In this document: positions 1 through 27,362 of the stretch, piece by piece
Numbering within the stretch: the first letter of the stretch is position 1
Layout of the letters: every line of letters begins with the position of its first letter
Translations under genes and position numbers: made by a program
Source of the DNA: a virus
Reading direction: 5' to 3' (one strand)
Length of the DNA stretch: 29,529 bases
Virus record (IMG/VR): IMGVR_UViG_3300013132_000186
Coordinates: 1 to 29,529 of that record
Notes under the pieces: model-generated
Databases searched by the model: none
Seen by the model: the letters and a program-made list of their open reading frames with translations, nothing else
What the model was told of the DNA's origin: nothing

Positions 1-1272
1 AGGATAGTTTTTAGTGTAAGATCCACCACCCCAATTTTTAAGCTCTGTCATATCTACTATACGATTTAAATATAAAGACACAGTAACTGAAGTATTTCCT
101 CCTAATAGGTTTGCAGGATCTTTGCTATTTAACATCCAGTCAATTGAGGTATTAGTTGTAGTGCCGTACTCTATGGCGGTGGGATTATAAGTAAATTTAA
201 ATCCCCAAATAGGTTGCTTACCCGTTTTATCTTTTTTATTAAGAGCTTTTGCGCCATCAGTAGATTGATATATTTTTCCTAGACGATTGTTTCTATTAGA
301 CAATGCTTCTTGTACATCTACAACAGAAGTAATAATTCGACCATTGCTATTTAATTGCTCTCTAGTTCGTTCTCCATGAGCAACACTTCTAGTGACATAG
401 TGATTAGGTGGGTTATATCTAACCTTATCTAGATTGGGTGGTGGAAGCACAGCGGTGTCTGGGACATCTGGGTCGTCATTAGAAAAACACTCTTGCGCTT
501 TTAACCTAATTACTTGTTTTCTACCAACTTCATAGTGATTGATTTTGTCTGGATTAGGTCCGCCATCTTTTCCAATATACTTTTGACTAACAAATGATCC
601 ATCTAACGCGTATGTTTTTACATAAACGTGTCTGCCATCTGACTTATCTTTAAGAACTAGCGCTACCCATCTGTTAGGTTTTGCACAGGTGTCACGAGTA
701 ATAAGATCTTGTAGACTACCAACAGCAGCCTCATCTTTTATGTTTTGAGGTACTTGTGAAGCAACATTGCCTTGAGTAAAAGTAATTGTTTTTGGTAAGC
801 CAGGTATTCCAGTTGCAGGAAAAATTTCTTTAGACACTGAACTATTATTTTCATCACTGTTGGGCTTTAATGTAACTAAAAATTTGGGGGTAAAAGTAAA
901 CCCAGATGTTTTTCCGTGAAATCCTACGATAAATAAGTTTTTATCTGAAAATAATAAATTTCCTTCGTTCGTGGTAACAATTGTGCCGATAGTTACGGCA
1001 TTAGCAACAGAATCTCTATAACTTTGTGGTATTGTTACTGAAACATTATTGTCATTTAATATTTGTGGTACTCCGGACACCAGTTTGTACGCACGAATAT
1101 AGTATTTTACTTCATGCTTTAAATTTACTCTTTTAGATGGACTACTTATTGCAACATACCCGTCTTCTGGGCTGCTGCCACCGGTTCCAATTTCTTCTTT
1201 TGTAACAACAGTCCAGTAATATAGGGATGAGGCATTTTGTACGGTTAAGTCATCTTCATATTTATATGCCAT
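1..1272 (-). CDS. Baseplate or tail-tip structural protein, partial (C-terminus beyond the left edge)
   Basis: The reading frame is open for all 424 codons from an ATG at 1272 to the edge of the window. The ATG overlaps the tape measure stop codon by one base (TAATG), so the two are translationally coupled. The N-terminal part has beta-rich, fibronectin-III-like stretches (KHEVKYYIRAYKL near residues 53-65). The last visible part (residues about 360-405) contains WGFKFTYNPTAIEYG, the F-x-F-x-YNP-x-x-I pattern seen in contractile-tail baseplate proteins next to the tape measure, some of which carry LysM-like domains. Gene order (sheath, tube, chaperone, tape measure, then this) also points to the baseplate. 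I do not see a catalytic motif. The exact family is uncertain; the coding call is sure. Confidence 0.8.
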   Translation of the reverse strand, partial: MAYKYEDDLTVQNASSLYYWTVVTKEEIGTGGSSPEDGYVAISSPSKRVNLKHEVKYYIRAYKLVSGVPQILNDNNVSVTIPQSYRDSVANAVTIGTIVTTNEGNLLFSDKNLFIVGFHGKTSGFTFTPKFLVTLKPNSDENNSSVSKEIFPATGIPGLPKTITFTQGNVASQVPQNIKDEAAVGSLQDLITRDTCAKPNRWVALVLKDKSDGRHVYVKTYALDGSFVSQKYIGKDGGPNPDKINHYEVGRKQVIRLKAQECFSNDDPDVPDTAVLPPPNLDKVRYNPPNHYVTRSVAHGERTREQLNSNGRIITSVVDVQEALSNRNNRLGKIYQSTDGAKALNKKDKTGKQPIWGFKFTYNPTAIEYGTTTNTSIDWMLNSKDPANLLGGNTSVTVSLYLNRIVDMTELKNWGGGSYTKNYP

Positions 1273-4200
1273 TAGTAACTACCAATTCCTTCCCCATACT
1301 TAAGTTTTTGTTCTAATCTTCTTAACACATCGTCTGCTAATTTATTAGCCTCAGATACAGATGCTCTTGCAATTTGAACATTCATATTTACCGAAACATT
1401 TACCTTTGAGTTAGAGTTTAAAGTAGCATTTCCTCGCATAACGGCGGTGCTAGAACCTCCAGTTTCTGTGGAAGAAAGTCCAGCAGACCCCATACCATCG
1501 CCGCCACCCATGCCAGTTTTCTTTGCTACAGTCTCTGCATCGTCTAAGAACTTAGTAAAAGCACCGGTGTTATAAGCTTCCCAAGGTTTCCAGTTAGTTC
1601 CTTTTTTACTTTTTACCCAAGCAGATTGGATATTGTAACGTGGGTCACGAAGACGAGTAGCATCTCTATAGGGATCGTTGTATGCTCTCCAATCTTTTAA
1701 AGAACGGATCTGAAAAATCCCATAACTGTTTCCCCATTTTTTATTTGCTAAATGCTCGTCTCCCACAGCTCCCGGTCTTCCACCAGATTCTGCTAAAGCT
1801 ACTGCAAAGGCTGTTTTTAAAGAATCTCCTCTAAAGCCTCCTTCATAAAGCATTTTCATAAGAGCAGATCGACTTCCTCCAGCTATTCCTGGAGGAGTTT
1901 CATCATACGAAGTATTAAAGTTATCCTTATATTTTTTACTATTAACGTTTATCCCACTAACCATTCTTCCAAGATTTACTGGTCCTCCACTAAACATCCG
2001 CAATAGTTCAGAAATAGAGGGGCTTCTTAGTTTTTTAGATACTGGCAGGGATGAGTCACTGTCTAGTGAGGAAGTAGAGCTGGAAGTCTTAATGTCATTA
2101 TTAATTCCAAAAACTCTGCCCGCCATGTTTTTTAAACCACTAAATGCTTTTCCAGCAATGTGTTTTATAAATGAAAATGCTCTTCCAAATAGTCCTTTAG
2201 GATCTTGACGTCCTTGAGCACCAACACCGCCGTGATCTCTGATTTCAAAGTGAAGGTGTGGACCAGTAGAGCTTCCTGCTCCTGGAGCACCTCTTTTACC
2301 GCCAGACTTAGCAATTTCTTGACCTTGTTTTACTTTTTGTCCTTTAGAAACAAGTATCTTACTTAGGTGAGCATACAAAGTTGATTTTTTTGCGTGTTTT
2401 ATAATTACATAATAGCCATATTGACGATGAGTTCCAGTTTCACTTACAATACCATCTGCAGCTGCAGCTACAGGGTTGCCTACACCAACTGCGTAGTCAA
2501 TACCGGTGTGATTAGAGCTAATGCCCGGATTTCTTTTTGCTGCATCTGGACGAGGTCCAAAAGGAGAACTTACTGGAGTACCTTTAGGCACAGGCGGTTG
2601 AAATACTTTTCCGGTAGCTCCACCGTCTCCACCAATGCCATGAGAACAACCCATGTGGCCATGAGCGCAATCTCCGCCACCCATTCCTCCGCCTAATAGC
2701 GTTTGTCCAAGACCAATACCCGTACCTATAAGGGCACCAATACCTGTTCCAAGACCAGGAATAAAGCTTCCTACAGCGGCTCCCGTAAGAGCCATGCTAC
2801 CTATGTTGGCAGCTGCTCTACCGGCAGTACGAACATTAGGGTTGACTTTATCTCCAAATAATGCGTCTAATGCTTCTGTACCTAAAGTGGCCGCAATAGC
2901 GCCGATTGTGAGTTTACCCTTTGAAGACTTTATTAATTTTAATAAGGCTGCTCGTTTAGATAGTGCAGCTGCACCAGTAGCAGCAGTTCCAGCTCCAACA
3001 GCAGCTGCTGTTCCAGCGCCCATAGTTGCTGCTGTTCCGCCTGCAGCTAAAGCACCTGTTCCCATAAGCCCTTTAGCGCCACCAACACCAAGCATTCTTG
3101 CAGTTAATCCTAGCTGCAGTGCGCTAGCGCCTGCACCCATGGCCATACCGCCTAAGCTTGATAAAGTTGCTCCCGTATTTCCAGCCCCAGGCATAGTTTG
3201 TAAAATACCTTTTAGGGTCATTAATCCATCATTGACTGGACCTAATATGTCAGCCATAGTGCTAAACGCATCGTTGACGGATGCCGTAGTACGAAGACCT
3301 ACGTTGTATCCACCCACTAAACCAGCTTCTGTTGATTCAAGCTTACGGGCCTCAGACGTGTTGTATCGGAACTGAGATCTTATTGGGCTTTCTTTACCAA
3401 CACCCATAAGATCAAGAGCTCGGTTAGGGTTAGACAAATCTTTTTTACTTAGGGCGCTTCCCTTACTTGCCCTAGCAATTATTCCCATTTGCAATTGACG
3501 CATTAATTCTGGATCCCCACCAGTTAGTTGCATTAAAGTTGCATAACCCCTAGATCCAGGGTTAAGAACCATCATTGCTTGTTCTTTAGTTATGGAGCGT
3601 GCGCCATATAAAAAGCGATAAGCTTGATTTATTAATTGATTAGGAGCTACTAGGTTTCCCTCTCTGTCACGAGCACGAATGCCGCCTCGCAAAAAAGTCA
3701 TTGCATTTATTCCAGCAAATGCTCCAGCAACTTGTTCGTTAGAGGAACCGGTTATTGCCGACATACCCCCAAGTTGTTGCATTATTCGCCTAGAGCCTAG
3801 GGTATTGGCTAAATATCCGCCTTGATAAGCTAGCGTTGCTGCAGCAGCTGTAGGACCGTATGCGCTAGTTGCGCCGCCACCTACTAAACGATTAGATTGA
3901 GAAATTAAGCTTGTAGCGCCCATTCCGCTGAGTCCAGCCACGGAATCTGCGTACATTCTTTGAGTTACTGCCGCCATAGTATTTGGCGCCATACTCATAC
4001 CTATTGCTGCAGTTCCAGCTGCAACTACTCCAAGACCTACGCCAATCTGTTGGTTGCGGGTCCCACTTCCAAAACTACCAAGACCTAAAGTTTGACCGCC
4101 AACGCCACCTTTTCCACCGTTAGAAATTTTGTTTACATACTCAGCAGCTTGTTTTAAATTTTTATTTATTTTATCGGTGTGTGCGACAAGTTTAAGCAGC

Positions 4201-4304
4201 CCAGTATCACCTTTAGACAATACTTTTTCCAGGATACCTGGCATTTGTCCAAAAGTGTTGTCGGTAGCACCGACCAAGTTTTGTCCACCGGGTGGGACTG
4301 CCAT
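1272..4304 (-). CDS. Tape measure protein with M23 peptidase and lytic transglycosylase domains
   Basis: The 1010-residue protein lies directly after the chaperone region, where a contractile-tail phage keeps its tape measure. Residues 85-120 and 380-540 are long hydrophobic Gly/Ala-rich helices typical of tape measures. Residues about 565-705 form an M23 (LytM-type) zinc metallopeptidase: NHTGID gives H599 and D603, YAHL gives H646, PHLHFE gives H683 and H685, so the metal set looks complete. Residues about 815-930 resemble a lytic transglycosylase fold, with E839 in ALAESGG as the likely acid and NSYGIFQI as the conserved strand. Together they would open host peptidoglycan during DNA entry. 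A short Cys/His cluster (CAHGHMGCSHG, residues 546-556) sits just before the peptidase. The C-terminal tail ends in a charged helix. The start is ATG after GGCGGTGA. Confidence 0.95.
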   Translation of the reverse strand: MAVPPGGQNLVGATDNTFGQMPGILEKVLSKGDTGLLKLVAHTDKINKNLKQAAEYVNKISNGGKGGVGGQTLGLGSFGSGTRNQQIGVGLGVVAAGTAAIGMSMAPNTMAAVTQRMYADSVAGLSGMGATSLISQSNRLVGGGATSAYGPTAAAATLAYQGGYLANTLGSRRIMQQLGGMSAITGSSNEQVAGAFAGINAMTFLRGGIRARDREGNLVAPNQLINQAYRFLYGARSITKEQAMMVLNPGSRGYATLMQLTGGDPELMRQLQMGIIARASKGSALSKKDLSNPNRALDLMGVGKESPIRSQFRYNTSEARKLESTEAGLVGGYNVGLRTTASVNDAFSTMADILGPVNDGLMTLKGILQTMPGAGNTGATLSSLGGMAMGAGASALQLGLTARMLGVGGAKGLMGTGALAAGGTAATMGAGTAAAVGAGTAATGAAALSKRAALLKLIKSSKGKLTIGAIAATLGTEALDALFGDKVNPNVRTAGRAAANIGSMALTGAAVGSFIPGLGTGIGALIGTGIGLGQTLLGGGMGGGDCAHGHMGCSHGIGGDGGATGKVFQPPVPKGTPVSSPFGPRPDAAKRNPGISSNHTGIDYAVGVGNPVAAAADGIVSETGTHRQYGYYVIIKHAKKSTLYAHLSKILVSKGQKVKQGQEIAKSGGKRGAPGAGSSTGPHLHFEIRDHGGVGAQGRQDPKGLFGRAFSFIKHIAGKAFSGLKNMAGRVFGINNDIKTSSSTSSLDSDSSLPVSKKLRSPSISELLRMFSGGPVNLGRMVSGINVNSKKYKDNFNTSYDETPPGIAGGSRSALMKMLYEGGFRGDSLKTAFAVALAESGGRPGAVGDEHLANKKWGNSYGIFQIRSLKDWRAYNDPYRDATRLRDPRYNIQSAWVKSKKGTNWKPWEAYNTGAFTKFLDDAETVAKKTGMGGGDGMGSAGLSSTETGGSSTAVMRGNATLNSNSKVNVSVNMNVQIARASVSEANKLADDVLRRLEQKLKYGEGIGSY

Positions 4305-5292: not shown

Positions 5293-5928
5293 TTAAAGAG
5301 CTGAGATTACTGTGTTGTCAAGCTTCTGTGCTGAACCTGCTTGTGTATAGTTACGAGCAAAGGTTACGTCAAAGCCTTCATGTACTAGAGTAAGTTCTTC
5401 AACCATTAGTGTGCTAGCTCCGGCGTCCAAGTTGCTGTAAGACAATGAAGTAATCCAGCAGTTGTGTACACGGAAACGCATAGATGCGTGATCTGTGTGT
5501 GGGCCTTCGGAAGCAGATCCATTTAATCCAACTAATCCAGCTGGATTTGGGTGGCTAAGCACTGCGATATCAAGGTCGCAGCGGAAGTCCGCACCAACTC
5601 CACTGGTTGCATTTGGGGTTAGCACTGAAAATAGGCGGCGCATCCAACGAGCATGAGCGTCATTTCCAAGCATTACGCCCTTTGAAAGAGTAATCGGGGT
5701 AAATGAGCTCTGACCAGGAATCTGGTGAAAGTTGGTGTTGTAGCCGCCTTCGCGGTATGCAATTGATTCAGTAGTGACGCTTAGGCCGGAAAGAGATACG
5801 AAGCCCATCTTTCCGAAAGAAGATCCCCACTTACCGTCGTCGCTCTGTTGATAAAACTCGACAACGAACTTAAAATTACGGACCGGATCCGTTTGGATAG
5901 TACTAAGTGTATGTCTAGGTTCAGTCAT
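5293..5928 (-). CDS. Tail tube protein (T4 gp19-like)
   Basis: The 211-residue protein follows the sheath gene. It begins with the pattern DPVRNFKFVVEF and continues with MGFVSLSGLSVTTESIAYREGG, the signature of gp19-type tube proteins, in which the tube subunit loops follow a first strand of the form F-x-V-E. The later part (residues about 70-110) has the ITLSKGVMLG strand and an amphipathic helix (HARWMRRLFSVL). Subunits stack as hexamers to make the rigid tube inside the sheath. The length fits, though it is somewhat longer than T4 gp19, owing to an extra loop near residues 110-150. The start is ATG behind AAGGAGATAAATAAAA. Confidence 0.93.
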   Translation of the reverse strand: MTEPRHTLSTIQTDPVRNFKFVVEFYQQSDDGKWGSSFGKMGFVSLSGLSVTTESIAYREGGYNTNFHQIPGQSSFTPITLSKGVMLGNDAHARWMRRLFSVLTPNATSGVGADFRCDLDIAVLSHPNPAGLVGLNGSASEGPHTDHASMRFRVHNCWITSLSYSNLDAGASTLMVEELTLVHEGFDVTFARNYTQAGSAQKLDNTVISAL

Positions 5929-5942
5929 TTTTATTTATCTCC

Positions 5943-7502
5943 TTAAGCCGTAGCTGTTCCGGTAATCTGACCAAGTTTGATTACAACAAACTCAGCAGGG
6001 AACTCAAGAGCAACGCCAACTTCAATGTTGACACGGCCATTTTGAATGTCTGCTTGGCTTGTTGTACTTGCATCTACCTTTACGTAGTAAGCCTTATCTG
6101 GGCTTGCTCCACGTAAACCACCTTGTTGCCAATAACCTCTTAAGAAAGAGCCTAAAGCAACACGGATTCGAGACCATAGACGTTCGCTATTGTTCTCAAA
6201 TATTGCAAAAGAGCTTCGATCAGTTAGCTCTTTCTTTATGTAGACTAGTGATCTACGTACATTTATGTAGCGATCACCTGGGGTGTTGTTAAGTGTGCGA
6301 CCACCCATAACAACAATTCCATTTCCTGGCACTGGGCGAATTGCATTAATTGGCGCAGTTCCAGTATTAAGAGAATCTAGTTCAGCATTTGTTAGTTGAC
6401 GTTCGGTAGCAACTGCTAACGCTACTCTGTTTGTAAGACCAGCTGGAGTCTTAAATACACCACGAGAAGCGTCTGTAGCTAAGAATTGACCCATCATTGC
6501 TGCTGCAGGAGCTTGAGTTCTAGTAGCTCCTCCGCTTGCACGCAAAGTGTCAGGGATAACAAGCCATGGATAATAAACCGCAGCGCATCCTCCATCTGAG
6601 TCCGGAGCCGCAGCCTTTACATCTGCAATAAAGGTTTTAGCTTCATTGACTGTCTGACCTGTTGGAACATCAACTATAGCGAACGCGTCTCCACGTAGTT
6701 CGCAATAATTAATTAAATCTCCATAAATATTTACAGCAAGAGTGCGCTCTTGAGTAGTTCCAGCAGGAGTATAAATGTATGCAGCTGCAGGAATTGTAAA
6801 TAGAAGTGGATTTTGGATAGCATCAAATGTGGTTAGCGCATCTGAGTAATTAGTACGAGTTGGAGCTGCTCCATTTGCACCGTCGCTTAGATCTTTCAAG
6901 CCATCAATTTCTGGCATATCATCTGGGGAAACAGACGCTGAATTTAGATCTGCAGCACGTATGTAAGCTGAGGAGGCGTTAATTACGGATACTACATATC
7001 TAGGATCTGTAGAATTCATACTTAGATCAGTAAACTGCTCTAATACATTTGAATTTGCAGCGCTTGTAATTGGAGCGCCATACACAGCTAAAGTAAAGCG
7101 AGTATCTGTTCCGGCTGCTAATACTTCTACAGAAAGATCATTTCCCCAAGCTCCTGGGCTTGCTGCAGAAATAGAAAGGGTGTTAAGAGCAGCTTGAGCA
7201 CGGTCAGTTAATATTACTGATGCTGAAGCTGAGGAGCTTCCTACAACTCGCTTTACGTATAGCTGACGGCCACCGTTAGCAAAAAAGTTATAGGCTGCCC
7301 ATGTGGTTGGATATGCGTCTTCAAGAGATCCAAAAGTTTTTACGAACTGTGTCCAAGAGTTAAGAAGCACTGGTTGATTAACAGGTCCACTAGATAGAGC
7401 GCCTACCAGGGCTCCAGCTGCAGTTCCTACATCCGCTAGTGCGACTTCTTGAGGAAGTTCGACTTCTTGGATAAAGACGCCTGGTCTACTGTATGTAGCC
7501 AT
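5943..7502 (-). CDS. Contractile tail sheath protein
   Basis: The 519-residue protein starts with SRPGVFIQEVELP, the classical N-terminus of phage tail sheath subunits, followed by a Gly/Ala-rich strand and FFANGGRQLYVKRVVG. The C-terminal part carries the conserved polymerisation region (PINAIRPVPGNGIVVMGGRT, then YINVRRSLVYIKKELT and a final beta strand VGVALEFPAEFVVIKLGQ). The ends of the protein fit the handshake strands that link neighbouring subunits. The length is usual for compact sheaths. The start is ATG behind AAGGAG. It is followed 14 bases later by the tube gene, as in most myoviruses. Confidence 0.97.
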   Translation of the reverse strand: MATYSRPGVFIQEVELPQEVALADVGTAAGALVGALSSGPVNQPVLLNSWTQFVKTFGSLEDAYPTTWAAYNFFANGGRQLYVKRVVGSSSASASVILTDRAQAALNTLSISAASPGAWGNDLSVEVLAAGTDTRFTLAVYGAPITSAANSNVLEQFTDLSMNSTDPRYVVSVINASSAYIRAADLNSASVSPDDMPEIDGLKDLSDGANGAAPTRTNYSDALTTFDAIQNPLLFTIPAAAYIYTPAGTTQERTLAVNIYGDLINYCELRGDAFAIVDVPTGQTVNEAKTFIADVKAAAPDSDGGCAAVYYPWLVIPDTLRASGGATRTQAPAAAMMGQFLATDASRGVFKTPAGLTNRVALAVATERQLTNAELDSLNTGTAPINAIRPVPGNGIVVMGGRTLNNTPGDRYINVRRSLVYIKKELTDRSSFAIFENNSERLWSRIRVALGSFLRGYWQQGGLRGASPDKAYYVKVDASTTSQADIQNGRVNIEVGVALEFPAEFVVIKLGQITGTATA

Positions 7503-9866: not shown

Positions 9867-10601
9867 TTACTTCTTTTGATGATCCGGAAAAGGGTTATTC
9901 CAGGCATCAGTACCCTGGAAATACTTTCTTCCAGCTGCGTGGGGCTTCAGTATGTCCTCTTGTTGCCGTTGTCTAGCTAATTCGGTTCCGGCCTTATATT
10001 CTAAATCAATTTCTTCAGGAGTAAACAGTTCGTCTGCATATTTGATTGTAAAACGATCCGCAAAATATCTAGGTATTGGGATAAAAGCTCCTATAGGATC
10101 TCCCGCCTTTATGGTCACATAAATGTTAGGTTTAGTAACTTTTAAATTAAAGGTAAAGTCACGACTAAGATTATCAGTCTCTATTACTCCAGTCATATGC
10201 ATAAGTCCGTGTTGAGGAAAATTAGGGGGAGTTATAGTCATTAAATTTACTCCAGGTGGGGTTCGATAATGCCATAAGTTTTGAACTGTTAGTATCCCAG
10301 AACCAAAATGACCATCAAATCGTTGACATCTAGAGTCTTCGTGTTTTTGATTTATTACAAGGCCGTGAATAGACTCTTCCCCATTCCAATGAACTGTTAT
10401 ATCTCGTTCAGCTTTTACTATAAATCCATAAATATTTCCTATAGAGAGGGGAAGGCAATAGTAAAAGTGCGAAGTAAACCAGTCTCTTTTTTTAATTTCT
10501 GTTAGGGGTATTAAAAGTTTATTAATATCTTCTTTGTCTATACCTGGTTGTGGTAGGACAACTAATGTTTGTGTTGGAACAGGGGTATCTTTATTAATCA
10601 T
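9867..10601 (-). CDS. DUF6065-like protein
   Basis: The 244-residue protein resembles the DUF6065 family: a first half with DITVHWNGEE, then FGSGILTVQNLWHYRTPPGVNL, then GVIETDNLSRDFTFNLKV and GDPIGAFIPIPR. Members occur in bacteria and phages; the biochemical function is not known to me. The C-terminal 50 residues are charged and helical and may be a linker or partner-binding tail. The gene overlaps the GT60-like glycosyltransferase by eight bases (the ATG lies inside PEHD-stop), so the two are made together and it may act in the same modification step. No signal peptide or membrane segment is seen. Confidence 0.65.
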   Translation of the reverse strand: MINKDTPVPTQTLVVLPQPGIDKEDINKLLIPLTEIKKRDWFTSHFYYCLPLSIGNIYGFIVKAERDITVHWNGEESIHGLVINQKHEDSRCQRFDGHFGSGILTVQNLWHYRTPPGVNLMTITPPNFPQHGLMHMTGVIETDNLSRDFTFNLKVTKPNIYVTIKAGDPIGAFIPIPRYFADRFTIKYADELFTPEEIDLEYKAGTELARQRQQEDILKPHAAGRKYFQGTDAWNNPFPDHQKK

Positions 10602-11487
10602 GTTCTGGCACGCCTATTTCTCTTATGTCTAAGGGAATTATGTACCCGGTTAATTCACAAAACTCATTTATAGTTTTTTTAGGAACACCATAAAAACCTT
10701 GAAGCTCTCCGCGTATAAACTTGTTTCCCCTAGAGGTATCATTTAACATGCTTAATTTGGGGTGACCGTCATTCCACGGTTTTATATTACTTTGTATAGC
10801 TACTCTATCTTGCGAGTAAAAATGAAAAAATACGGGGTTATTAAAAAAGACTATGGGGTATCTGTGATAAAAAGCTCTTATACTTAAGCACACCTCATCA
10901 CAAAAAAAATCTAATTCTGGATCTTGAGGTACCTCTAATAAAAATTCTTTTTTAGAAAAAACACAAGCTCCTTGTATATAATGATGCTCTGTTAAGTCTT
11001 CTGCTTCTTTATGGTCAGGCCAATTTCTAAAATGAGCGCCATTTAATACTGCATGAGACATACTTAAAACTGGCCCTTTTTTCCTATCTCCATTAGAATA
11101 TCTTTTATACATTGCTGGGTATGCGCTCAAAACTACGGGAGAATTAAATTTTTCTTTTGCTTTTTTATACACTTCTATTATGTCTACATCCCAATTTTTT
11201 ACAGAAAACATATGTGCGTCTATTTGAAGAAAATAATCGTAGTCGCTAAACATAGCTATTGCTATAGACCGTGCCCAAGTTAAACCGTAGGTTTCTTTTG
11301 GATCTACTTTTAGATATTTTAGATTTAAGGTAGGTATAAATGAAAGATCTGGATGTTCGTAGTCTTGAGATACTACAGAAAATAAAATACGATCTTTATA
11401 CTTAGCGTCTTCATAAAAAGAACGAACAGTATGTTCTAATTCTATCTCTCTATATGAAACAACCGAAATAAGTATTTTTTCATGCAT
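10594..11487 (-). CDS. GT60-like glycosyltransferase (Skp1 GlcNAc-transferase family)
   Basis: The 297-residue protein opens with ILISVVSYREIELEHTVRSF and reads FSVVSQ at 36-41, the nucleotide-sugar binding start of Pfam GlcNAc (PF11397). FLQIDAHM at 86-93 matches the family's Q-I-D-x-H metal site, followed by W99-D100. Later segments VLSAYPAMY, YIQGACVFSK and FFCDEVCLSIRAFYHRYP, then VFFHFYSQ, follow the family order. The Dictyostelium member adds GlcNAc to hydroxyproline of Skp1. The gene is immediately downstream of a prolyl-hydroxylase-like gene with a one-base overlap (TAATG), which makes hydroxyproline a plausible acceptor here too. Sugar and acceptor remain inferred. It is cytosolic; I see no signal or membrane segment. 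Confidence 0.75.
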   Translation of the reverse strand: MHEKILISVVSYREIELEHTVRSFYEDAKYKDRILFSVVSQDYEHPDLSFIPTLNLKYLKVDPKETYGLTWARSIAIAMFSDYDYFLQIDAHMFSVKNWDVDIIEVYKKAKEKFNSPVVLSAYPAMYKRYSNGDRKKGPVLSMSHAVLNGAHFRNWPDHKEAEDLTEHHYIQGACVFSKKEFLLEVPQDPELDFFCDEVCLSIRAFYHRYPIVFFNNPVFFHFYSQDRVAIQSNIKPWNDGHPKLSMLNDTSRGNKFIRGELQGFYGVPKKTINEFCELTGYIIPLDIREIGVPEHD

Positions 11488-12047
11488 TAGTACAACGCAT
11501 ATTCTTTAGATTTATCAAAAGTCCAAAAAGAAGCAATTGTGTACCTAGTGTTATCCTCTATTTTAGTTACGCCATGAAGATGTTCTGGATCTCCGGGGTG
11601 TATAGCTAAGTTTCCAGCTTGTGGTATAACCTCAAAGTTATGCTCCGGATAGTACGTATGACCTCCAGAATAATTATCATTTAAATAAATTATTGCTCCA
11701 AATACTCTATGTTCAAAACCTCTATGTTCTGTATTAGTCATGTCGTCTGCGTGAGGAGGTTGCTCCATGCCGGGAAACCAACGAATAATTTGAGTAAGGT
11801 CTGCGTAGACTTCTTTATCTAAGCCGTATTCAGACATGATGGCGTTTTTAACTTTTATAGTGGCTTCGGCAACAATATTTGCAACTTTAGGGTCTATGTT
11901 TCTTCTAAGGTTGGGAAGTCCTAAGGCCCTATTAGACCAAAAATCATTGCCGGCACCTTCCCAAGTATCAACTTTGGAGACAGTGCTTACTACATACTCG
12001 CAGCTCTCTTTAGAGAGAAAATTTGGTACTACTTTTGGATTAAACAT
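11487..12047 (-). CDS. Prolyl-4-hydroxylase-like 2-oxoglutarate/Fe(II) oxygenase
   Basis: The 186-residue protein shows the double-stranded beta-helix of 2-oxoglutarate oxygenases. H99 and D101 (PPHADDM) and distal H158 (EHLHGV) form the iron triad, and R168 (NTRYTIASFW) would hold 2-oxoglutarate. FGAIIYLNDNYSGGHTYYPE is the P4H-type strand-turn with the G-G-x-T-x-x-P motif. Family members hydroxylate proline in proteins with O2 and 2-oxoglutarate. The length is that of a compact bacterial or viral enzyme without extra domains. The start is ATG behind AGAGGGCGTAT. Neighbours, a polyproline protein upstream and a GT60-like enzyme downstream, suggest protein proline as substrate; another substrate is possible because the P4H fold is used widely. 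Confidence 0.85.
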   Translation of the reverse strand: MFNPKVVPNFLSKESCEYVVSTVSKVDTWEGAGNDFWSNRALGLPNLRRNIDPKVANIVAEATIKVKNAIMSEYGLDKEVYADLTQIIRWFPGMEQPPHADDMTNTEHRGFEHRVFGAIIYLNDNYSGGHTYYPEHNFEVIPQAGNLAIHPGDPEHLHGVTKIEDNTRYTIASFWTFDKSKEYALY

Positions 12048-12057
12048 ATACGCCCTC

Positions 12058-12318
12058 TTAATCTTCTGTTTTAGACCATTTTCCTACGGGACATTCTGCA
12101 AGTTTTAATTTAGTTTTTAGGTGCATTAAGCAACCGCATTTTTTACACTGATTTGTAGATTTTGTAAGAAATTCACAACCCTTACAAATGTTAAATCTAA
12201 GCTCAGCTATAGCATCGGTAGTATAATTATCTTTATTTAAAAGATGCCAGGGTCTAGTTTCTCCTTGAGCTTCCTTAATACCTTGAAGTTTTTGTTTATA
12301 TTCTTTCCATGCAGACAT
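12058..12318 (-). CDS. Small zinc-ribbon protein
   Basis: The 86-residue protein has an N-terminal charged helix (residues 1-25) and then two Cys groups: ICKGCEF and CKKCGCLM, with a final ECPVGKW. The five to six Cys with C-x2-C spacings fit a zinc ribbon. Similar small proteins with the closing C-P-x-G-K-W motif are frequent in phages of aquatic bacteria next to oxygenase or glycosyltransferase genes. The molecular role is unknown to me. It is only five bases after the preceding gene and ten bases before the oxygenase gene, so it belongs to the same operon. Confidence 0.7.
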   Translation of the reverse strand: MSAWKEYKQKLQGIKEAQGETRPWHLLNKDNYTTDAIAELRFNICKGCEFLTKSTNQCKKCGCLMHLKTKLKLAECPVGKWSKTED

Positions 12319-12322
12319 GCCG

Positions 12323-12559
12323 TTACCCTAAAGTAACTCCGCCAGGATTTGTAGCGGAAGTGGGTGGACTTACAAAACTATTATTTTCATAAGTCCATCC
12401 ATATACTACATCTAAGCCTGAAGGCACCGGAATAATTTTTGGATCTGAGTTATATGCAGCGATATGTCTTGGAACAGATGCAGCAGGATTTGTATCATCA
12501 ATGCTGATAGTTCCGGCTACATCACCATCAACTACTATAGCGAATTTGTGTACGGTCAT
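12323..12559 (-). CDS. Small hypothetical protein
   Basis: The 78-residue protein has a short beta-rich start (KFAIVVDGDVAGTISIDD) and the segment VVYGWTYENNSFVSPP near residues 51-66, a motif seen in small fibre-assembly or virion-associated proteins of phages (a W-x-Y-x-x-x-x-F-x-x-P-P ending). It follows the polyproline protein with a good ribosome binding site (AGGAGAATAA). It might be a chaperone or a second component of that fibre, but this is inference. No catalytic motif or membrane segment is seen. Confidence 0.65.
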   Translation of the reverse strand: MTVHKFAIVVDGDVAGTISIDDTNPAASVPRHIAAYNSDPKIIPVPSGLDVVYGWTYENNSFVSPPTSATNPGGVTLG

Positions 12560-12585
12560 TTATTCTCCTAAGTATAGTTCTAAGT

Positions 12586-14580
12586 TTAGCATAGACACTG
12601 TGCTCCATCGCAGAAGCATCCTAAGAACTCAGGACAGTATCCGCAACCTCCAGGAGGTGGAGGTGGAGGCGGAGGAGGCGGTGGTGGAGGTGGAGTTGGC
12701 TCAGCACAGCCTTCAAATTCGCAGAATCCAACATAGCACGCATAGCATGGCGGGCAACTAATACCAGCACAAGGATTTGTAGGTGGAGGAGGAGGTGGAG
12801 GAGGAGGTGGAGGAGGCGGAGGAGGCGGAGGAGGCGGAGGCGGAGGAGGCGGAGGTGTAGGAGTACAGCTATCTATACACTCATAAGTATAGGTAATGTT
12901 ACCGCAGCAGTTAATGTTTGCCCAGCGAATGGCTTGACCACAACATTCAGATCTAAACACCGAGCCAGAAGTTGGAATTTGATCACAATCTCCACAGCAC
13001 GCACAATCATTACATCCACAAGGAGGTGCAGGAGGCGGAGGAGGAGGCGGTGGTGGGGTACTACAGTTCAGTCCTGTGTAGTAAGGTGCTGAGGTATTTG
13101 TAGATCCGTCGGAACACCTAGGGTACCAAACTTGATGACTAGTACATCCAGGGCAAGATCCATCAGGGCAGGCACCAGGACCGACTGGTCCTTGAGTACT
13201 GCCATATTGCGTACCGCAGATTAATCCACAAGCAGTTCCGGCTCCGCCGCTACCACCGCAGCTAGATACGTTTTGAGCAAGACATGCGCCAAAACTATTT
13301 AACTCTGTTGGAGGACAGCCCGTAGTAATGTAGGACCCATCAGTGCAAGGTCTTCTATACCCAGTAAAGTTTCCAACATATGAGTCTTCACCATTACAAA
13401 CTGGCTGAGTAAATTGGTAAGGTTCGCAATTTTGTGAACAAGTAACTGTACAAGGACGAGGATCTACTGCAAAACTTCCTTGTTCGATAATTGTATTACC
13501 ACAAGGTATGCCTGTCCTTGATCTAGTGCTTGCTGTTCCAGACTCAAAACCATTTATACAGTTTCCGCTATAAGTAATATTACTGTAAATCCAGTCTGTA
13601 AAGCTAGTGTTAGTACATGGTCCAGGAGGAGGCGGAGGAGGAGGCGGAGGCGGAGGAGTAGGCGGAGGTGGAGGTGGAGCTACATATCCACAAGTAACGG
13701 AGTTTGCTTCTATTAATCTATTTGCTAAATACTCATTATTTGTTGCTCCCGATGAAGCGTATCTTACATACCCGACACGTTGTCTTCTATTTACCCCGTC
13801 GCAGTAAAGCTCGCTTGCACTAGATCCTACCTGATAAAAGGTGGGGATAGGATCGCTAGTAGGGGGAGTAGTTACATATATGTTATCTGCAATACTTCCC
13901 TGTTCTGCAGTGGTAGGAGTTTTTATAAGACCTATATATGTTCCCATATTTGGGGATGCAGCAGTGACTACTAGAGGTACAGATAGCTGTAAAGTCGCTA
14001 ATAAATCTGAATATCCTGTAACTCTTAAAGAACCATTATCTGCCTTTACAGAAATGCTATTTATAGATGTATATCCGGTAGCACTAAAGTTTATTACTGC
14101 GGAATATACGGTAGTTCTAGTTCCGGATACGTTTTGTACTACATCAATTGAAGAGGAATAAATACCGTCGGAAAATGAGTACCTAGGCACTGCGGCCCAC
14201 CAGTTATTAGAATCAACTACCCAGAATGCAAGACCGACACCACCACTGGTTCTTACTCGAGCATCAAAATTTGAACTGTATAGATCTATTACTGTTAATG
14301 CGTGATCGCTAGGAGAATTATCGCATGAGGCTTGCTGCGATCCATCTACTCTCCAGGTTCCTCCAAATGGCACCCACGTTTGATTGCTTTCCGCAATCCC
14401 TAAATCAGAGACTGTAGATGATCTACTAAATGTGTCTTCTATTCTTGAGGCATACCATTGACGCCATACTTCGCCAACTTTTATGTAAGCAGCAGTAGCT
14501 GTTCTCCATTCACCAGCTACTTTAACTGAAAGGCGAGTTGCAGCCCTCCATACACCACTTACCTTGGCTGAACCTGGCAT
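12586..14580 (-). CDS. Cys-rich polyproline virion protein, probable fibre
   Basis: The 664-residue protein has three parts. Residues 1-45 carry repeats ending in W-R (KVSGVWRAAT, KVAGEWRTAT, KVGEVWRQWY), a known phage fibre N-terminal pattern. Residues about 48-240 look like a beta-sandwich (LamG-like, with DTFSR and GLAFWVVDSNNWWAA). Residues 297-664 alternate Cys-rich segments, with more than 40 Cys in the whole protein, and polyproline runs of 6+11, 9, 25 and 14 residues. Polyproline makes stiff rods, and the Cys pairs would lock small knots between them. The prolines are encoded by mixed CCT/CCG/CCA, so the run is not just a slipped repeat. A downstream oxygenase and a GT60-like gene in the same operon make it a candidate for hydroxylation and glycosylation. 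The start ATG overlaps the upstream stop (TAATG). Confidence 0.85.
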   Translation of the reverse strand: MPGSAKVSGVWRAATRLSVKVAGEWRTATAAYIKVGEVWRQWYASRIEDTFSRSSTVSDLGIAESNQTWVPFGGTWRVDGSQQASCDNSPSDHALTVIDLYSSNFDARVRTSGGVGLAFWVVDSNNWWAAVPRYSFSDGIYSSSIDVVQNVSGTRTTVYSAVINFSATGYTSINSISVKADNGSLRVTGYSDLLATLQLSVPLVVTAASPNMGTYIGLIKTPTTAEQGSIADNIYVTTPPTSDPIPTFYQVGSSASELYCDGVNRRQRVGYVRYASSGATNNEYLANRLIEANSVTCGYVAPPPPPPTPPPPPPPPPPPGPCTNTSFTDWIYSNITYSGNCINGFESGTASTRSRTGIPCGNTIIEQGSFAVDPRPCTVTCSQNCEPYQFTQPVCNGEDSYVGNFTGYRRPCTDGSYITTGCPPTELNSFGACLAQNVSSCGGSGGAGTACGLICGTQYGSTQGPVGPGACPDGSCPGCTSHQVWYPRCSDGSTNTSAPYYTGLNCSTPPPPPPPPPAPPCGCNDCACCGDCDQIPTSGSVFRSECCGQAIRWANINCCGNITYTYECIDSCTPTPPPPPPPPPPPPPPPPPPPPPPPPPTNPCAGISCPPCYACYVGFCEFEGCAEPTPPPPPPPPPPPPPPGGCGYCPEFLGCFCDGAQCLC
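12652..12693 (-). repeat. Polyproline codon run (14 Pro)
   Basis: Fourteen consecutive proline codons of mixed CCT, CCA and CCG near the C-terminus of the Cys-rich protein. It connects two Cys-rich segments. Confidence 0.95.
12781..12855 (-). repeat. Polyproline codon run (25 Pro)
   Basis: Twenty-five consecutive proline codons, the longest run in the window. The codons CCT, CCG and CCA are mixed, with short local CCG-CCT-CCT repeats that suggest growth by replication slippage. Confidence 0.95.
13030..13056 (-). repeat. Polyproline codon run (9 Pro)
   Basis: Nine consecutive proline codons between a Cys-rich segment and the CGCNDCAC motif of the same protein. Confidence 0.9.
13624..13677 (-). 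repeat. Polyproline codon run (6 Pro, Thr, 11 Pro)
   Basis: Eighteen codons, all proline except one threonine, marking the border between the beta-sandwich part and the Cys-rich part of the protein. Confidence 0.95.
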
Positions 14581-15387: not shown

Positions 15388-15729
15388 TTATGAAACCTCA
15401 GATCCAAATGCCTGGAAGGTTAGGTTAGCTGTAGAAGCCACAACGGTAATTGCGTCTAAAGCAGACAGGGTAACTCCCAGAGTAAAGGTGGTAGTGGTAT
15501 AAGCCGGCACAGTTGCGTCATAAGCTAGGTATTGCTTATTGTCTAGAGCTGCGTTAGCTTCACGGATTGCAATACGGTAGGTGGAGGCACTAGCGCCTCG
15601 ATTACAAACCACTATGGTTGATACCACAGCTGAGCTGCCTGAAACTGACGGCACAGCATAAAGCTGGGTGCCACCTGATACGTTAGCTGCTGGGGCAACC
15701 TGGCCTAAAATTTTATAGATCGTTGCCAA
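15388..15729 (-). CDS. Small beta-rich virion protein (113 aa), TTG start
   Basis: The protein starts at TTG 15729, placed well behind GGAG, and overlaps the end of the preceding glycosyltransferase gene by 17 bases. It reads as a beta-sandwich: a first strand (QLYAVPSVSGSSAVVSTIVV), CNRGASASTYRIAIR in the middle, and two closing strands. The layout (V-P-S ... a strand ending in N/C-N ... strand) is shared with the 100-residue protein at 22953-23255, so the two may be paralogues. Small proteins of this type are often head or fibre components in large phages. The role is not established. Confidence 0.7.
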   Translation of the reverse strand: MATIYKILGQVAPAANVSGGTQLYAVPSVSGSSAVVSTIVVCNRGASASTYRIAIREANAALDNKQYLAYDATVPAYTTTTFTLGVTLSALDAITVVASTANLTFQAFGSEVS

Positions 15730-16789
15730 GAGAATGCTCCTTAGAGTAGAAAGCTAAATTTGCCGTAAGGCGTGGGTCATTTGGGTTTAATTCTACGGCT
15801 TTAGCTCCGTATTGAAATGCCTTATCGAACAAACCTAGGCGATAAGAGGCTATGGCTGCATAGTCCCAGGGAGCCGATCCCCAGGCAAATTCCTCGCACA
15901 AATACTCTAGCGGTTTTTCTACTATTTTTAAGGCATTTTCTGCAGCGTCCAGGCAGTCAAACCAGCTGTTATTTTCATAGTAAAGTTTAGATAGATCTAC
16001 ATAACCCTCTCTACGATCCGGGGCTTCCTCCACAGCTTTTTTTAACCATTTTTCTTTTTCTGCAAAGTTTTCTATCATCTTAGCAATATACCTCATCGAT
16101 GCTGCTCGTTCTGGTTTCCATACCGCTTTTGGTAGAGAAAGGTGTCTTTTAAACTCTTCTACTGATTCAGCAAATTTTCCGTAGAAGAAAAGTTCTCTGG
16201 CAAAGTAAAAAGCGTTGCGATCATCGTAGGGGTCTTCTTCTACAGACTGAGCGAGTAGGGGGAAGTATTGAGATCTGGGTTTTGTATCATCGGCGTGGTG
16301 ATGAATCTGTAGGGCTGTCCAACCCTGGACTTCATTTAGGCGATCGGTAATCAATACTTCATGGACTGGATGCTTCCACCTATAGCCGTGCCTTTTGTGA
16401 ATCTTATCTCCCCCATATTGTAACCCTGGGGCACCGTCAGGGTTCCAACTCCACGTATATTGATAACGTGGGCGAGTTATGTTTGTGTTGGAGAGTGCTT
16501 CTAGTTCTTTACGCCATCCAGGCAATAGGACTTCGTCCATGTCTAGGGCTATACAAAAATCTATATCATTAGGAAGCATTGCAAGAGCAGCATTGCGAGC
16601 GTCATCAAACCGCCAAGGCTTTACAGAGATATCGATGACATTTATGCCGTAGTTCTTGGCGTACTTCTTAGTGAGATCAGTAGATCCGGTATCTGCTATT
16701 AACAGATAGTCTGCTTCTTTTGCAGATTGATACCATGGTTCTACAAACTGAGCTTCGTTTAGTGCTATCGTATAGACGGCTATTTTCAT
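15713..16789 (-). CDS. GT2-type glycosyltransferase with C-terminal TPR-like helices
   Basis: The 358-residue protein starts at ATG 16789, with GGAG upstream; a TTG five codons earlier is less likely. Residues 1-90 are a GT-A fold of family 2: VYTIALNEAQFVEPW, ADTGSTD, FDDARNAAL and ALDMDEVL, where D-M-D-E is the metal site. Residues about 185-355 are helix repeats (FYFARELFFYGKFAESVEEF, then DYAAIASYRLGLFDKAFQYG) of TPR type, which could hold the protein acceptor. The gene lies between a collagen-like fibre and small fibre proteins, which suggests that it glycosylates virion proteins. Sugar and target are not known. It is a cytosolic enzyme. Confidence 0.85.
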   Translation of the reverse strand: MKIAVYTIALNEAQFVEPWYQSAKEADYLLIADTGSTDLTKKYAKNYGINVIDISVKPWRFDDARNAALAMLPNDIDFCIALDMDEVLLPGWRKELEALSNTNITRPRYQYTWSWNPDGAPGLQYGGDKIHKRHGYRWKHPVHEVLITDRLNEVQGWTALQIHHHADDTKPRSQYFPLLAQSVEEDPYDDRNAFYFARELFFYGKFAESVEEFKRHLSLPKAVWKPERAASMRYIAKMIENFAEKEKWLKKAVEEAPDRREGYVDLSKLYYENNSWFDCLDAAENALKIVEKPLEYLCEEFAWGSAPWDYAAIASYRLGLFDKAFQYGAKAVELNPNDPRLTANLAFYSKEHSLGNDL

Positions 16790-16804
16790 GCCCTCATGCT
16801 CCAA

Positions 16805-16915
16805 TTATTCTTCTAAATAAACTAAGTCGTAACCTACGACCACTCCTTCTTCATTCTTTACTTCAAATTTTTCTGCGCCAGTTTCTGGATCTATACCTAA
16901 ACTAGTCTTTATCAT
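16805..16915 (-). CDS. Very small acidic protein (36 aa)
   Basis: A short gene fits exactly between the collagen-like fibre and the glycosyltransferase. The ATG at 16915 overlaps the fibre stop (ATGA), and its stop is followed at once by the glycosyltransferase ribosome binding site. The protein begins MIKTSLGIDPETGAEKFEV and ends DLVYLEE, with an acidic, beta-like character. The chain of overlaps is the main evidence. I do not recognise a family. Confidence 0.6.
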   Translation of the reverse strand: MIKTSLGIDPETGAEKFEVKNEEGVVVGYDLVYLEE

Positions 16916-18690
16916 GAGAACCTTCCCCAAACGCTAATAGTACTTGACGACATTGAGCTTATAGATGTTGGTAGATCTGATTGTGCAGCCACTGCCCCCG
17001 TAATTCTTGGGGATAGTGTAGACAGAGTTCCAGGAACAGAACTCCACGCCATTTGTATAGATCCAGGAGTAGAAGCTAATACGATTAAACCAATCGCATA
17101 TCGTGTTCCAGCAACTAGAGCATAAGTTTCTGGATATCCGCCACTTAAATCCAGTGTTCGTGTATAAAGAGTATTGGTTGTAGAGAATATGGTCGTATCA
17201 GAAGCTGTTCTAGCTACTAGAGTTGCAGTATTGCCAGATACTGTATATAAACCAAAACGAATTAATGATGCTCCTGTAGTGGCTATAGTTGCAGCAGCTA
17301 CACTTATTGAGGAGATTGTAGTAGTCCAGGTAGGGGTAAACATTGTTAGGTATACGGTTCCGCTTGTTGGGGTTCCAGTAAAGTTACCAATACGTGGGTA
17401 TACATCTACTACAGACAAACTCTGATTTTGATTTCCTGCAAGGTTTCCGAATGCATCATTGTTTAGCTTAGCTGCAGTAACGCTTTGATCTGCAAGCTTT
17501 GCTGTAGTAACAGCTAGATCTGCTATCTTTCCAGTAGTAACATTTAGATCGGCTATCTTTCCAGTAGTAACATTTAGATCGGCTAGTTTAGCAGTTGTTA
17601 CGTTTAAATCAACAATCTTAGATGTAGTTACTGAATCCGCCGCTAGTTTATCTGCAGTAACGTTTTCATTTACAATCTTTGCAGTTGTAACTGTCCCGTC
17701 TGTAGGAGTACGCGTATCGGTAAATCTAGCGTCTGTGTTAATAGCTAGTTGTACCCAGTCGCCAGCGTGTGCATAATAAGCACCTCCAGTAGCATGGACA
17801 TGAGCAAACATTCCGTGGTTAGAGACTGCTGCTGGTAAATCTACTAAAGCATCAAATACAGACCAGGTAATATCATCTGAAGTAATTAAGGACTTATCTA
17901 AGCCTATTACCGCAGCGGTAGAAGTGCCGGTATTTGTTACAGGTTCTGTTACAGAAATAACTCCAGAAGGTCCTGTAGGTCCTAAATCACCCTGTGGTCC
18001 AGTTGGTCCAGTATCTCCTTGTGGACCAGTTGCGCCCACGATTTGTCCGGCGCTATACCATTGTGTTCCATCCCATACATAGACATCGCCGTCTGCATCT
18101 ACAATCCACGCATCATTTAAATTATTTTCTGTTGAGGGCAAATCACCAACAGTTGCTTTAGATCCTTTTAGTGTAATTGGAACGCCTTGAGGTCCTGTAG
18201 GGCCCGTTACACCTTGCGGCCCTGTTGGCCCAGTTACTGTTGAGTCCGCACCTGTTGGACCTGTAACGCCCTGTGGGCCAGTTGGTCCAGTTGCACCTAC
18301 GGGGCCGGTTGCGCCTTGTGGTCCTGTAACACCTCTAGGAATTCCAAAATCAAAAACAGCAACAGACGGAGTACCAGAATTTACAACAGTGGCATTTGAG
18401 TTAGGACTAAGAGTTGTTACTGTTCCTACGTTTACGATTGATGATGGTCCTGTAGGACCAGTTGGTCCTGTTACCGTGGATGCTGCACCTGTTGGGCCTG
18501 TAACTCCTATGGGACCAGTTGGCCCAGTAACACCAGAAGAATATGAAAGAGAGTTCCAAGGAGTTAATCCATTACCGACTTTAAATTTTCCGGTGTCGTG
18601 TTCATAGCCCGCTTCTCCCTGAGAAAGAATTGGATTTGATTGACTCCACTCAAGAGCAGTACCACGTCTAAACTGAATTTTTACGGCCAT
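16912..18690 (-). CDS. Collagen-like tail or head fibre with an Mtd-like N-terminus
   Basis: The 592-residue protein begins with KIQFRRGTALEWSQSNPILS and GEAGYEHDTGKFKVGNG, the N-terminal module of many phage fibres (Mtd_N-like). Collagen-like Gly-x-y blocks follow at about 53-82, 119-170 and 219-243, mostly Gly-Pro-Thr and Gly-Pro-Gln. A W-D-G-x-x-W module lies at 178-218. Next comes FAHVHATGGAYYAHAGDW (295-312), a motif known from phage fibres, then about eight tandem decapeptide repeats such as DLNVTTGKIA (333-410), and a beta-rich C-terminal domain that could bind the receptor. The start is ATG behind AGGAGTGTAA. The collagen blocks would form trimers. The location between other surface proteins supports a virion fibre. 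Confidence 0.88.
   Translation of the reverse strand: MAVKIQFRRGTALEWSQSNPILSQGEAGYEHDTGKFKVGNGLTPWNSLSYSSGVTGPTGPIGVTGPTGAASTVTGPTGPTGPSSIVNVGTVTTLSPNSNATVVNSGTPSVAVFDFGIPRGVTGPQGATGPVGATGPTGPQGVTGPTGADSTVTGPTGPQGVTGPTGPQGVPITLKGSKATVGDLPSTENNLNDAWIVDADGDVYVWDGTQWYSAGQIVGATGPQGDTGPTGPQGDLGPTGPSGVISVTEPVTNTGTSTAAVIGLDKSLITSDDITWSVFDALVDLPAAVSNHGMFAHVHATGGAYYAHAGDWVQLAINTDARFTDTRTPTDGTVTTAKIVNENVTADKLAADSVTTSKIVDLNVTTAKLADLNVTTGKIADLNVTTGKIADLAVTTAKLADQSVTAAKLNNDAFGNLAGNQNQSLSVVDVYPRIGNFTGTPTSGTVYLTMFTPTWTTTISSISVAAATIATTGASLIRFGLYTVSGNTATLVARTASDTTIFSTTNTLYTRTLDLSGGYPETYALVAGTRYAIGLIVLASTPGSIQMAWSSVPGTLSTLSPRITGAVAAQSDLPTSISSMSSSTISVWGRFS
17521..17580 (-). repeat. Two near-identical 30-bp copies coding for the decapeptide repeat
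   Basis: The two halves (17521-17550 and 17551-17580) differ in one base and encode the same decapeptide (DLNVTTGKIA). They are embedded in a longer array of degenerate ten-residue repeats, so unit duplication in this fibre is recent. Confidence 0.9.
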
Positions 18691-19056
18691 TTACACTCCT
18701 AGTACGTTACCACCATTGATTGTAATTCCTCCACCATAAACTGTATTGGGAACTCCACCATCAATGTTGTCATTTTCTGGGCCAGTAGGACCAGTTGCAC
18801 CTGTAGGGCCAGGAACTGTTGATATAGGCCCAGTAGATCCGGTTGGACCAGTAGGACCAGTAGGACCAGTAGGTCCTGGAATTATAGAGTCTGGACCTGT
18901 AGGACCTGTTGGTCCTATAGGACCTGTAGGACCTAAGTCTCCCTGAACACCCTCAGAGATTAGTAATCTCCATACAGAACCACTCCAGTACCACGTGGTT
19001 TGACCAACAGTAAACTGTTGATTTAATGTGGGGTTATCTGGAAAGTCTATGGCCAT
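18691..19056 (-). CDS. Short collagen-like protein (121 aa)
   Basis: An N-terminal module (residues 1-37) has [13 protein letters not shown], related to the W-x-G-x-x-W modules in the neighbouring fibres. Residues 38-95 are a collagen-like Gly-Pro-Thr segment with two short breaks (DSIIP, ISTVP). A short Gly/Asn C-terminus (GGGITINGG) follows. The gene starts with ATG but has a poor ribosome binding site, so its level may be low or coupled to other genes. It could be a short fibre or an accessory trimer for the 592-residue fibre directly downstream. Confidence 0.82.

Positions 19057-25466: not shown

Positions 25467-27354
<1,888 letters not shown>

Positions 27355-27362
<8 letters not shown>

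Follow-up and report, generated by a model that had tools for sequence, protein, structure and literature searches.

Why would a phage encode a prolyl-hydroxylase-like oxygenase and a glycosyltransferase back to back, in the same operon as a protein with long runs of proline? The question is raised by IMGVR_UViG_3300013132_000186, a 29.5-kb virus record from a lake phage that we analyzed over its whole length (the window) and whose tail gene order is of the contractile type. On the minus strand of the window, a series of genes encodes in turn a polyproline protein, a 78-residue protein, DUF6171, a prolyl 4-hydroxylase (P4H)-like 2-oxoglutarate (2OG)-Fe(II) oxygenase, a PF11397 glycosyltransferase, and DUF6065, with gaps of 26, 4, 10, –1, and –8 bases between successive genes. 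We propose that this operon (14580–9867) is probably a cassette with which the phage modifies its own polyproline protein. All five open reading frames named in an earlier note on this DNA were found on the minus strand where it had placed them, and its family calls and its pairing of the two enzymes were correct, but it had overlooked DUF6171, DUF6065, and three collagen-like proteins with Gly-Pro-Thr (GPT) repeats.

Genes and predicted activities of the operon

The first gene (12586..14580, minus strand, as for every gene of the series) encodes a 664-residue tail-region protein that has no Pfam match and whose N terminus matches phrog_25859; we regard it as the probable substrate. KVxGxWR-type N-terminal repeats and a central domain are followed by five proline runs of 6, 11, 9, 25, and 14 residues, parted by Cys-rich segments. 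Translation bears out the runs of up to 25 residues described earlier, the longest of which (TPT-P25-TNP, 12781..12855) has Thr on either flank. Shuffling 2000 times with composition preserved gave proline runs of at most 6, so the runs cannot arise from composition, and their mixed codons (CCT/CCG/CCA) exclude a simple slippage tract in the DNA. Thr is nearly absent inside the runs, and every long run has Thr on at least one flank. Homologues with polyproline runs occur in loci L002/L043 (69%) and L050, and the window's own group comprises about nine close contigs together with L050 and L111. The tail-gene context suggests that the protein is carried in the virion.

The oxygenase (11487..12047) matches PF13640 with 34.4 bits, above the cut-off of 27 (E 4.4e-8), and contains H99-x-D101...H158...R168 together with GGHT, confirming the metal triad, the 2OG-binding Arg, and the G-G-x-T motif that had been read from the sequence; HxD...H...R is invariant in nine aligned sequences. 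When the nine-member profile was searched against the PDB, prolyl 3-hydroxylase 1 (E 1e-7) and bacterial P4Hs (E 1e-6) came out on top, and the ten matches at E ≤ 0.1 were all prolyl or lysyl hydroxylases. Thus, the enzyme resembles prolyl 4- and 3-hydroxylases over other 2OG enzymes, as had been claimed, and we predict that it hydroxylates the proline runs, with either 3- or 4-hydroxyproline as a possible product. Relatives of this family were absent from a search of one genome per bacterial and archaeal species, and the family therefore gives no clue to a host or prophage. Relatives in the cyanophages NC_047718 and NC_027130 carry the public label "DNA endonuclease" yet match prolyl-hydroxylase-type oxygenases.

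The transferase (10594..11487) scores 92 bits in the hidden Markov model search for PF11397 (GlcNAc, GT60-type), where the cut-off is 21 (E 6.6e-26), and has QIDAH at residue 88 and WD at residue 99, so that both the family and the Q-I-D-x-H and W-D motifs reported earlier are upheld. A PDB sequence search with the transferase alone gave no match. An AlphaFold model built from 14 phage relatives (pLDDT 77, pTM 0.81) has a GT-A fold, and its nearest solved structures in Foldseek are polypeptide GalNAc-transferases (E 2e-9, TMq 0.53–0.60). Because this fold is the closest, the enzyme looks like a protein O-glycosyltransferase. The solved neighbors belong to GT27, whereas the sequence family of the window's enzyme is PF11397, and at 297 residues it is too short to accommodate the ricin-like domain found at the C terminus of most metazoan GT27 members. 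PF11397 is common in viral contigs (>560 loci). In L348, L351, L362, L370, L380, and L389, PF11397 genes of other phages lie directly behind Thr/Pro-rich low-complexity proteins.

The remaining products of the operon may be accessory proteins of the cassette in the case of DUF6065 and DUF6171. DUF6065 (9867..10601; PF19541, E 1e-36) accompanies the oxygenase more constantly than any other gene, lying next to it for 46 of the 59 distinct viral P4H genes; its model showed only a weak dUTPase/beta-clip-like fold (E 4e-4, TMq 0.36–0.39), and a search with it against phage records gave no match. DUF6171 (12058..12318; PF19668, E 5e-8) is a small Cys-rich, zinc-ribbon-like protein whose gene starts the cassette in most relatives. 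The 78-residue protein (12323..12559) is akin to a protein of about 140 residues encoded after the repeat protein in related phages.

We envisage that the P4H-like enzyme would hydroxylate prolines of the polyproline protein encoded by the first gene, thereby creating hydroxyls on a repeat with hardly any of its own, and that the PF11397 transferase would then add sugar, either to the hydroxyprolines or to the Thr residues beside the runs. This would yield a rigid, glycan-bearing polyproline-II rod on a tail or fiber protein, comparable to a small extensin. There are good odds that the polyproline protein is the shared substrate of both enzymes, and about even odds that a hydroxyproline–sugar bond is made.

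Repeats and enzyme sets across related phages

To place the operon among its relatives, we drew on viral contigs that are fragmentary, with mechanical calls of open reading frames and with profiles that span some transferase families only. A near-identity search of the whole window against phage records found nothing matching, and close copies of the cassette block were found in eight contigs. The P4H profile gave 165 viral relatives, and the locus counts rest on the best 80 of these. With a diproline (PP)-repeat protein defined as one having at least six PP pairs and lying within eight genes upstream, such a protein preceded the P4H in 53 of the 62 viral loci that extend at least 3 kb ahead of it. 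Together with the comparisons below, this strongly supports the link between oxygenase and proline-repeat protein that had been proposed. PP-rich genes lie nearly all at position –2 from DUF6171 (37 of the 51 such genes among 945 genes). Outside their repeats these proteins are mostly unrelated, and the repeats themselves range from polyproline (up to 49 residues) through PPPIIAT, PPVT, PPVV, and PPPTT to others. As a control only, we took 39 viral contigs with generic polyproline reading frames, most of which were out of frame or linkers and many of which were short loci; none of these oxygenases occurred in the DNA examined.

The sugar genes beside P4H also vary, and include PF11397, GT61, UDP-glucose dehydrogenase, epimerases, and carbamoyltransferase; radical SAM/SPASM, JmjC, and further 2OG oxygenases are likewise found in P4H cassettes. 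A 340-residue protein with a GLGNQ motif recurs (L018:2200-3228, L069, L243, L248), mainly with PVPV/APTPVPV-type repeats; it has no Pfam match and recalls fucosyltransferases.

Does the enzyme set follow the repeat? To avoid the bias of sampling by P4H, a second sample was picked by the unrelated tail gene immediately upstream (c4), giving 36 distinct loci. In these, cassette composition tracked the sequence of the repeat (Mantel r 0.48, p 0.0005; 0.43, p 0.001 after thinning), while its correlation was 0.04 with c4, 0.05 with the Cys-rich C-terminal domain that separates the repeat from the cassette, 0.19 with the gene in between, and 0.10 (p 0.06) with DUF6171. Correcting for the in-between gene or for DUF6171 left a repeat effect of 0.53 to 0.56. 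A third sample, drawn by N-terminal motif (51 loci, 45 after thinning) and not fully independent in that it shares contigs with the c4 sample, gave r 0.42 (p 0.0002) for the repeat against 0.04 for the C terminus and 0.06 for the N terminus. Within families, the sequences of radical SAM, JmjC, c0, and c5 also follow the repeat; GT61 sequences track the upstream gene and not the repeat. Physical linkage alone would favor the nearer sequence, and the covariation therefore argues for a match between substrate and enzyme.

P4H of the window's family was present in 12 c4-sampled loci, all with PP repeats, while 17 of 32 such loci without P4H have no PP (Fisher p 0.0012); PPPIIAT repeats have P4H, and single-proline TPIIAT repeats do not. 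An oxygenase was found in 47/48 loci in which Ser and Thr make up less than 50% of the repeat and in 0/3 above that value (p 0.0002). PVPVPV and PPPVA repeats, with zero Ser/Thr, are still paired with oxygenases and sugar enzymes (for PVPVPV, an oxygenase with epimerase or carbamoyltransferase genes), and repeats with almost no Ser/Thr are always accompanied by oxygenases, while threonine-only repeats are not. TTTTAAP-type mucin-like repeats (L253, L268, L280) come with radical SAM and PF11397 and no oxygenase; these loci are possibly a Thr-linked variant of the same cassette. The pattern fits oxygenases supplying hydroxyls where the repeat has none, although only presence or absence separates the loci, there being no significant trend between Ser/Thr content and the number of oxygenase types (rho –0.23, p 0.11).

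On this comparison, the oxygenases probably hydroxylate the repeats and the glycosyltransferases probably decorate them, and in relatives repeat and enzyme set would be exchanged jointly as matched modules. We see an even chance that aquatic phages use a modular "repeat code," in which tail-tip repeats (polyproline, PPPTT, PPVV, PVPV, PTPT, TTTTAAP, and others) are swapped along with matched hydroxylases, glycosyltransferases, and sugar-nucleotide enzymes, so that particles would bear extensin-like hydroxyproline-linked glycans or, in the variant that lacks oxygenases, mucin-like glycans linked to Thr.

Precedents and competing explanations

Parts of such a system are known elsewhere. The alga virus PBCV-1 likewise encodes a P4H, which is reportedly active on proline-rich peptides, and we know of no matched cassette there. 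Plant hydroxyproline-rich glycoproteins (extensins and arabinogalactan proteins) are likewise made by P4H and then O-glycosylation of PP-rich repeats, and the linkage of a PP-rich repeat gene to P4H and a glycosyltransferase that such a system requires is found here; the plant pathway differs in its initiating glycosyltransferase families, in its use of the secretory pathway, and in a substrate that is not homologous to the phage protein. The Skp1 pathway of Dictyostelium and Toxoplasma (PhyA and Gnt1, a GT60 enzyme) likewise combines a prolyl hydroxylase with a transferase of the PF11397/GT60 family, and Toxoplasma Gnt1 requires the hydroxyproline made by PhyA (PMC6939170). That pathway is eukaryotic and acts on a single proline of a folded cytosolic protein, whereas the phage genes concern long repeats in a tail-region protein, and unlike the Skp1 pathway, phage relatives have PF11397 beside Thr repeats without an oxygenase, as well as with P4H beside PPPTT and polyproline repeats. 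Mimivirus L230 is likewise a viral 2OG hydroxylase and transferase modifying the virus's own structural repeats (PMC4691112), but it makes hydroxylysine in collagen, is one fused enzyme, and belongs to a giant virus of amoebae; a collagen gene linked to hydroxylase and glycosyltransferase is not the pattern here, since 16 of 29 P4H loci have a PP protein and no collagen in the DNA examined.

Phage 2OG oxygenases are usually classed as metabolic genes, and one survey states that viral use of prolyl 4-hydroxylase "remains cryptic" (PMC9301287). The part of the literature that we covered held no paper on hydroxyproline or on P4H/glycosyltransferase cassettes acting on phage tail repeats. A matched substrate/enzyme cassette would offer a specific answer, open to testing, for a broad group of aquatic phages, namely that it is their own tail proteins that they modify. 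If true, it would mean hydroxyproline-type or mucin-type protein O-glycosylation in phages, would supply a naturally occurring set of repeats and matching enzymes from which specificity could be read, and would suggest that the end of the particle that recognizes the host bears variable coats of glycan.

Several points weigh against a self-modification cassette of this kind. PF11397 is present in 12/12 loci whose repeat is at least 26% Ser and Thr and in 1/39 below that value, and the acceptor may therefore be Thr. At locus L050, the polyproline protein occurs with P4H and DUF6065 but with no adjacent GT60, so the sugar step is not obligatory. The Mantel tests correct for shared descent only partly, and the covariation comes mainly from relatives with another N terminus (VSPLxRxPSGIG), the window's own subgroup being small. 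2OG oxygenases are frequent in aquatic phages, for which other roles have been proposed (PMC3037559, PMC9599517). Finally, PMC7019647 cites an unpublished note according to which hydroxyproline was not detected in purified particles of the P4H-encoding chlorovirus PBCV-1.

The first of these points leads to the alternative that survives best, which we consider less probable than the proposal above but a serious contender: P4H would hydroxylate the runs, and PF11397 would be a mucin-type Thr O-glycosyltransferase acting on the same protein or on the GPT collagens, with no hydroxyproline-linked sugar. In addition to the preference for Thr-rich repeats, TTTTAAP loci carry GT60 without an oxygenase, the GT60 enzyme of Trypanosoma cruzi transfers GlcNAc to polypeptides in mucin-type glycosylation (PMC6939170, PMC8724618), and the transferase fold is closest to polypeptide GalNAc-transferases. 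Thr acceptors are also at hand, in the flanks of the long runs and in the 55 GPT triplets of the window's collagens. However, the window's runs hold almost no Thr, yet GT60 overlaps into the P4H operon, and at PPPTT, PPPAT, and PPPVT loci PF11397, P4H, and DUF6065 all occur together. GT60 subclades sort with repeat type, and within P4H cassettes PF11397 can be replaced by GT61, by UDP-glucose dehydrogenase plus an unclassified gene, or by nothing. Thus, the acceptor of the window's GT60 could be hydroxyproline or threonine. The adjacency of P4H and GT60 that the earlier note described is real, but the Skp1-like order that it drew from this adjacency (P4H, then GT60 on hydroxyproline) goes beyond the data, in that PF11397 follows Thr in relatives.

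It is unlikely that both enzymes act instead on the collagen-like GPT-repeat tail proteins (16912-18690, 18691-19056, and 25467-27362), as has been suggested for bacterial collagens of the BclA type and demonstrated, for hydroxylysine, in mimivirus collagen. Three such proteins do lie within the window, and the Bacillus anthracis P4H hydroxylates PPG peptides (PMC8968730). However, the collagen genes are distant from the cassette; 16 of 29 P4H loci with at least 5 kb upstream have a PP protein without collagen in the DNA examined, against one with the reverse; and none of the 27 c4-anchored oxygenase loci that extend at least 4 kb in both directions has collagen in the DNA examined. The P4H-locus counts thus weaken collagen as the main substrate.

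Slightly more doubtful still is a cassette that alters the host surface (lipopolysaccharide or capsule) or makes a small molecule against superinfection, the proline-repeat gene being a mere neighbor. Clusters of jumbo cyanophages with glycosyltransferases, carbamoyltransferase, and 2OG oxygenases have been interpreted in this way (PMC7824862), and epimerases, UDP-glucose dehydrogenase, and carbamoyltransferase occur in relatives of the window, but such a function fails to predict that the cassette follows the repeat and not the sequence in between, or that P4H is confined to PP repeats. A role of the oxygenase in nucleic-acid repair or in nitrogen/2OG metabolism (roles proposed in PMC3037559, and in keeping with the label DNA endonuclease on phrog_2297 and with "DNA endonuclease" or 2OG balance in some cyanophage records) is very improbable, given that the PDB profile search puts the fold family at prolyl 4- and 3-hydroxylases and that the gene sits in a tail operon beside proline repeats.

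Other genes of the window

Of the contractile-tail genes, the T4-gp19-like tube lies at 5293-5928 and the sheath at 5943-7502. The sheath is closest to those of Streptomyces phages (34%), and a tape-measure-like protein (1272-4304) has M23 peptidase and SLT_3 lysozyme domains; the sheath similarity and these domains hint at an actinobacterial host. A gene for a GT2 glycosyltransferase with TPR (phrog_13126, 15713-16804) lies directly downstream of the collagen-like GPT protein at 16912-18690, which has an Mtd N-terminal domain, and the two are possibly a separate modification pair.

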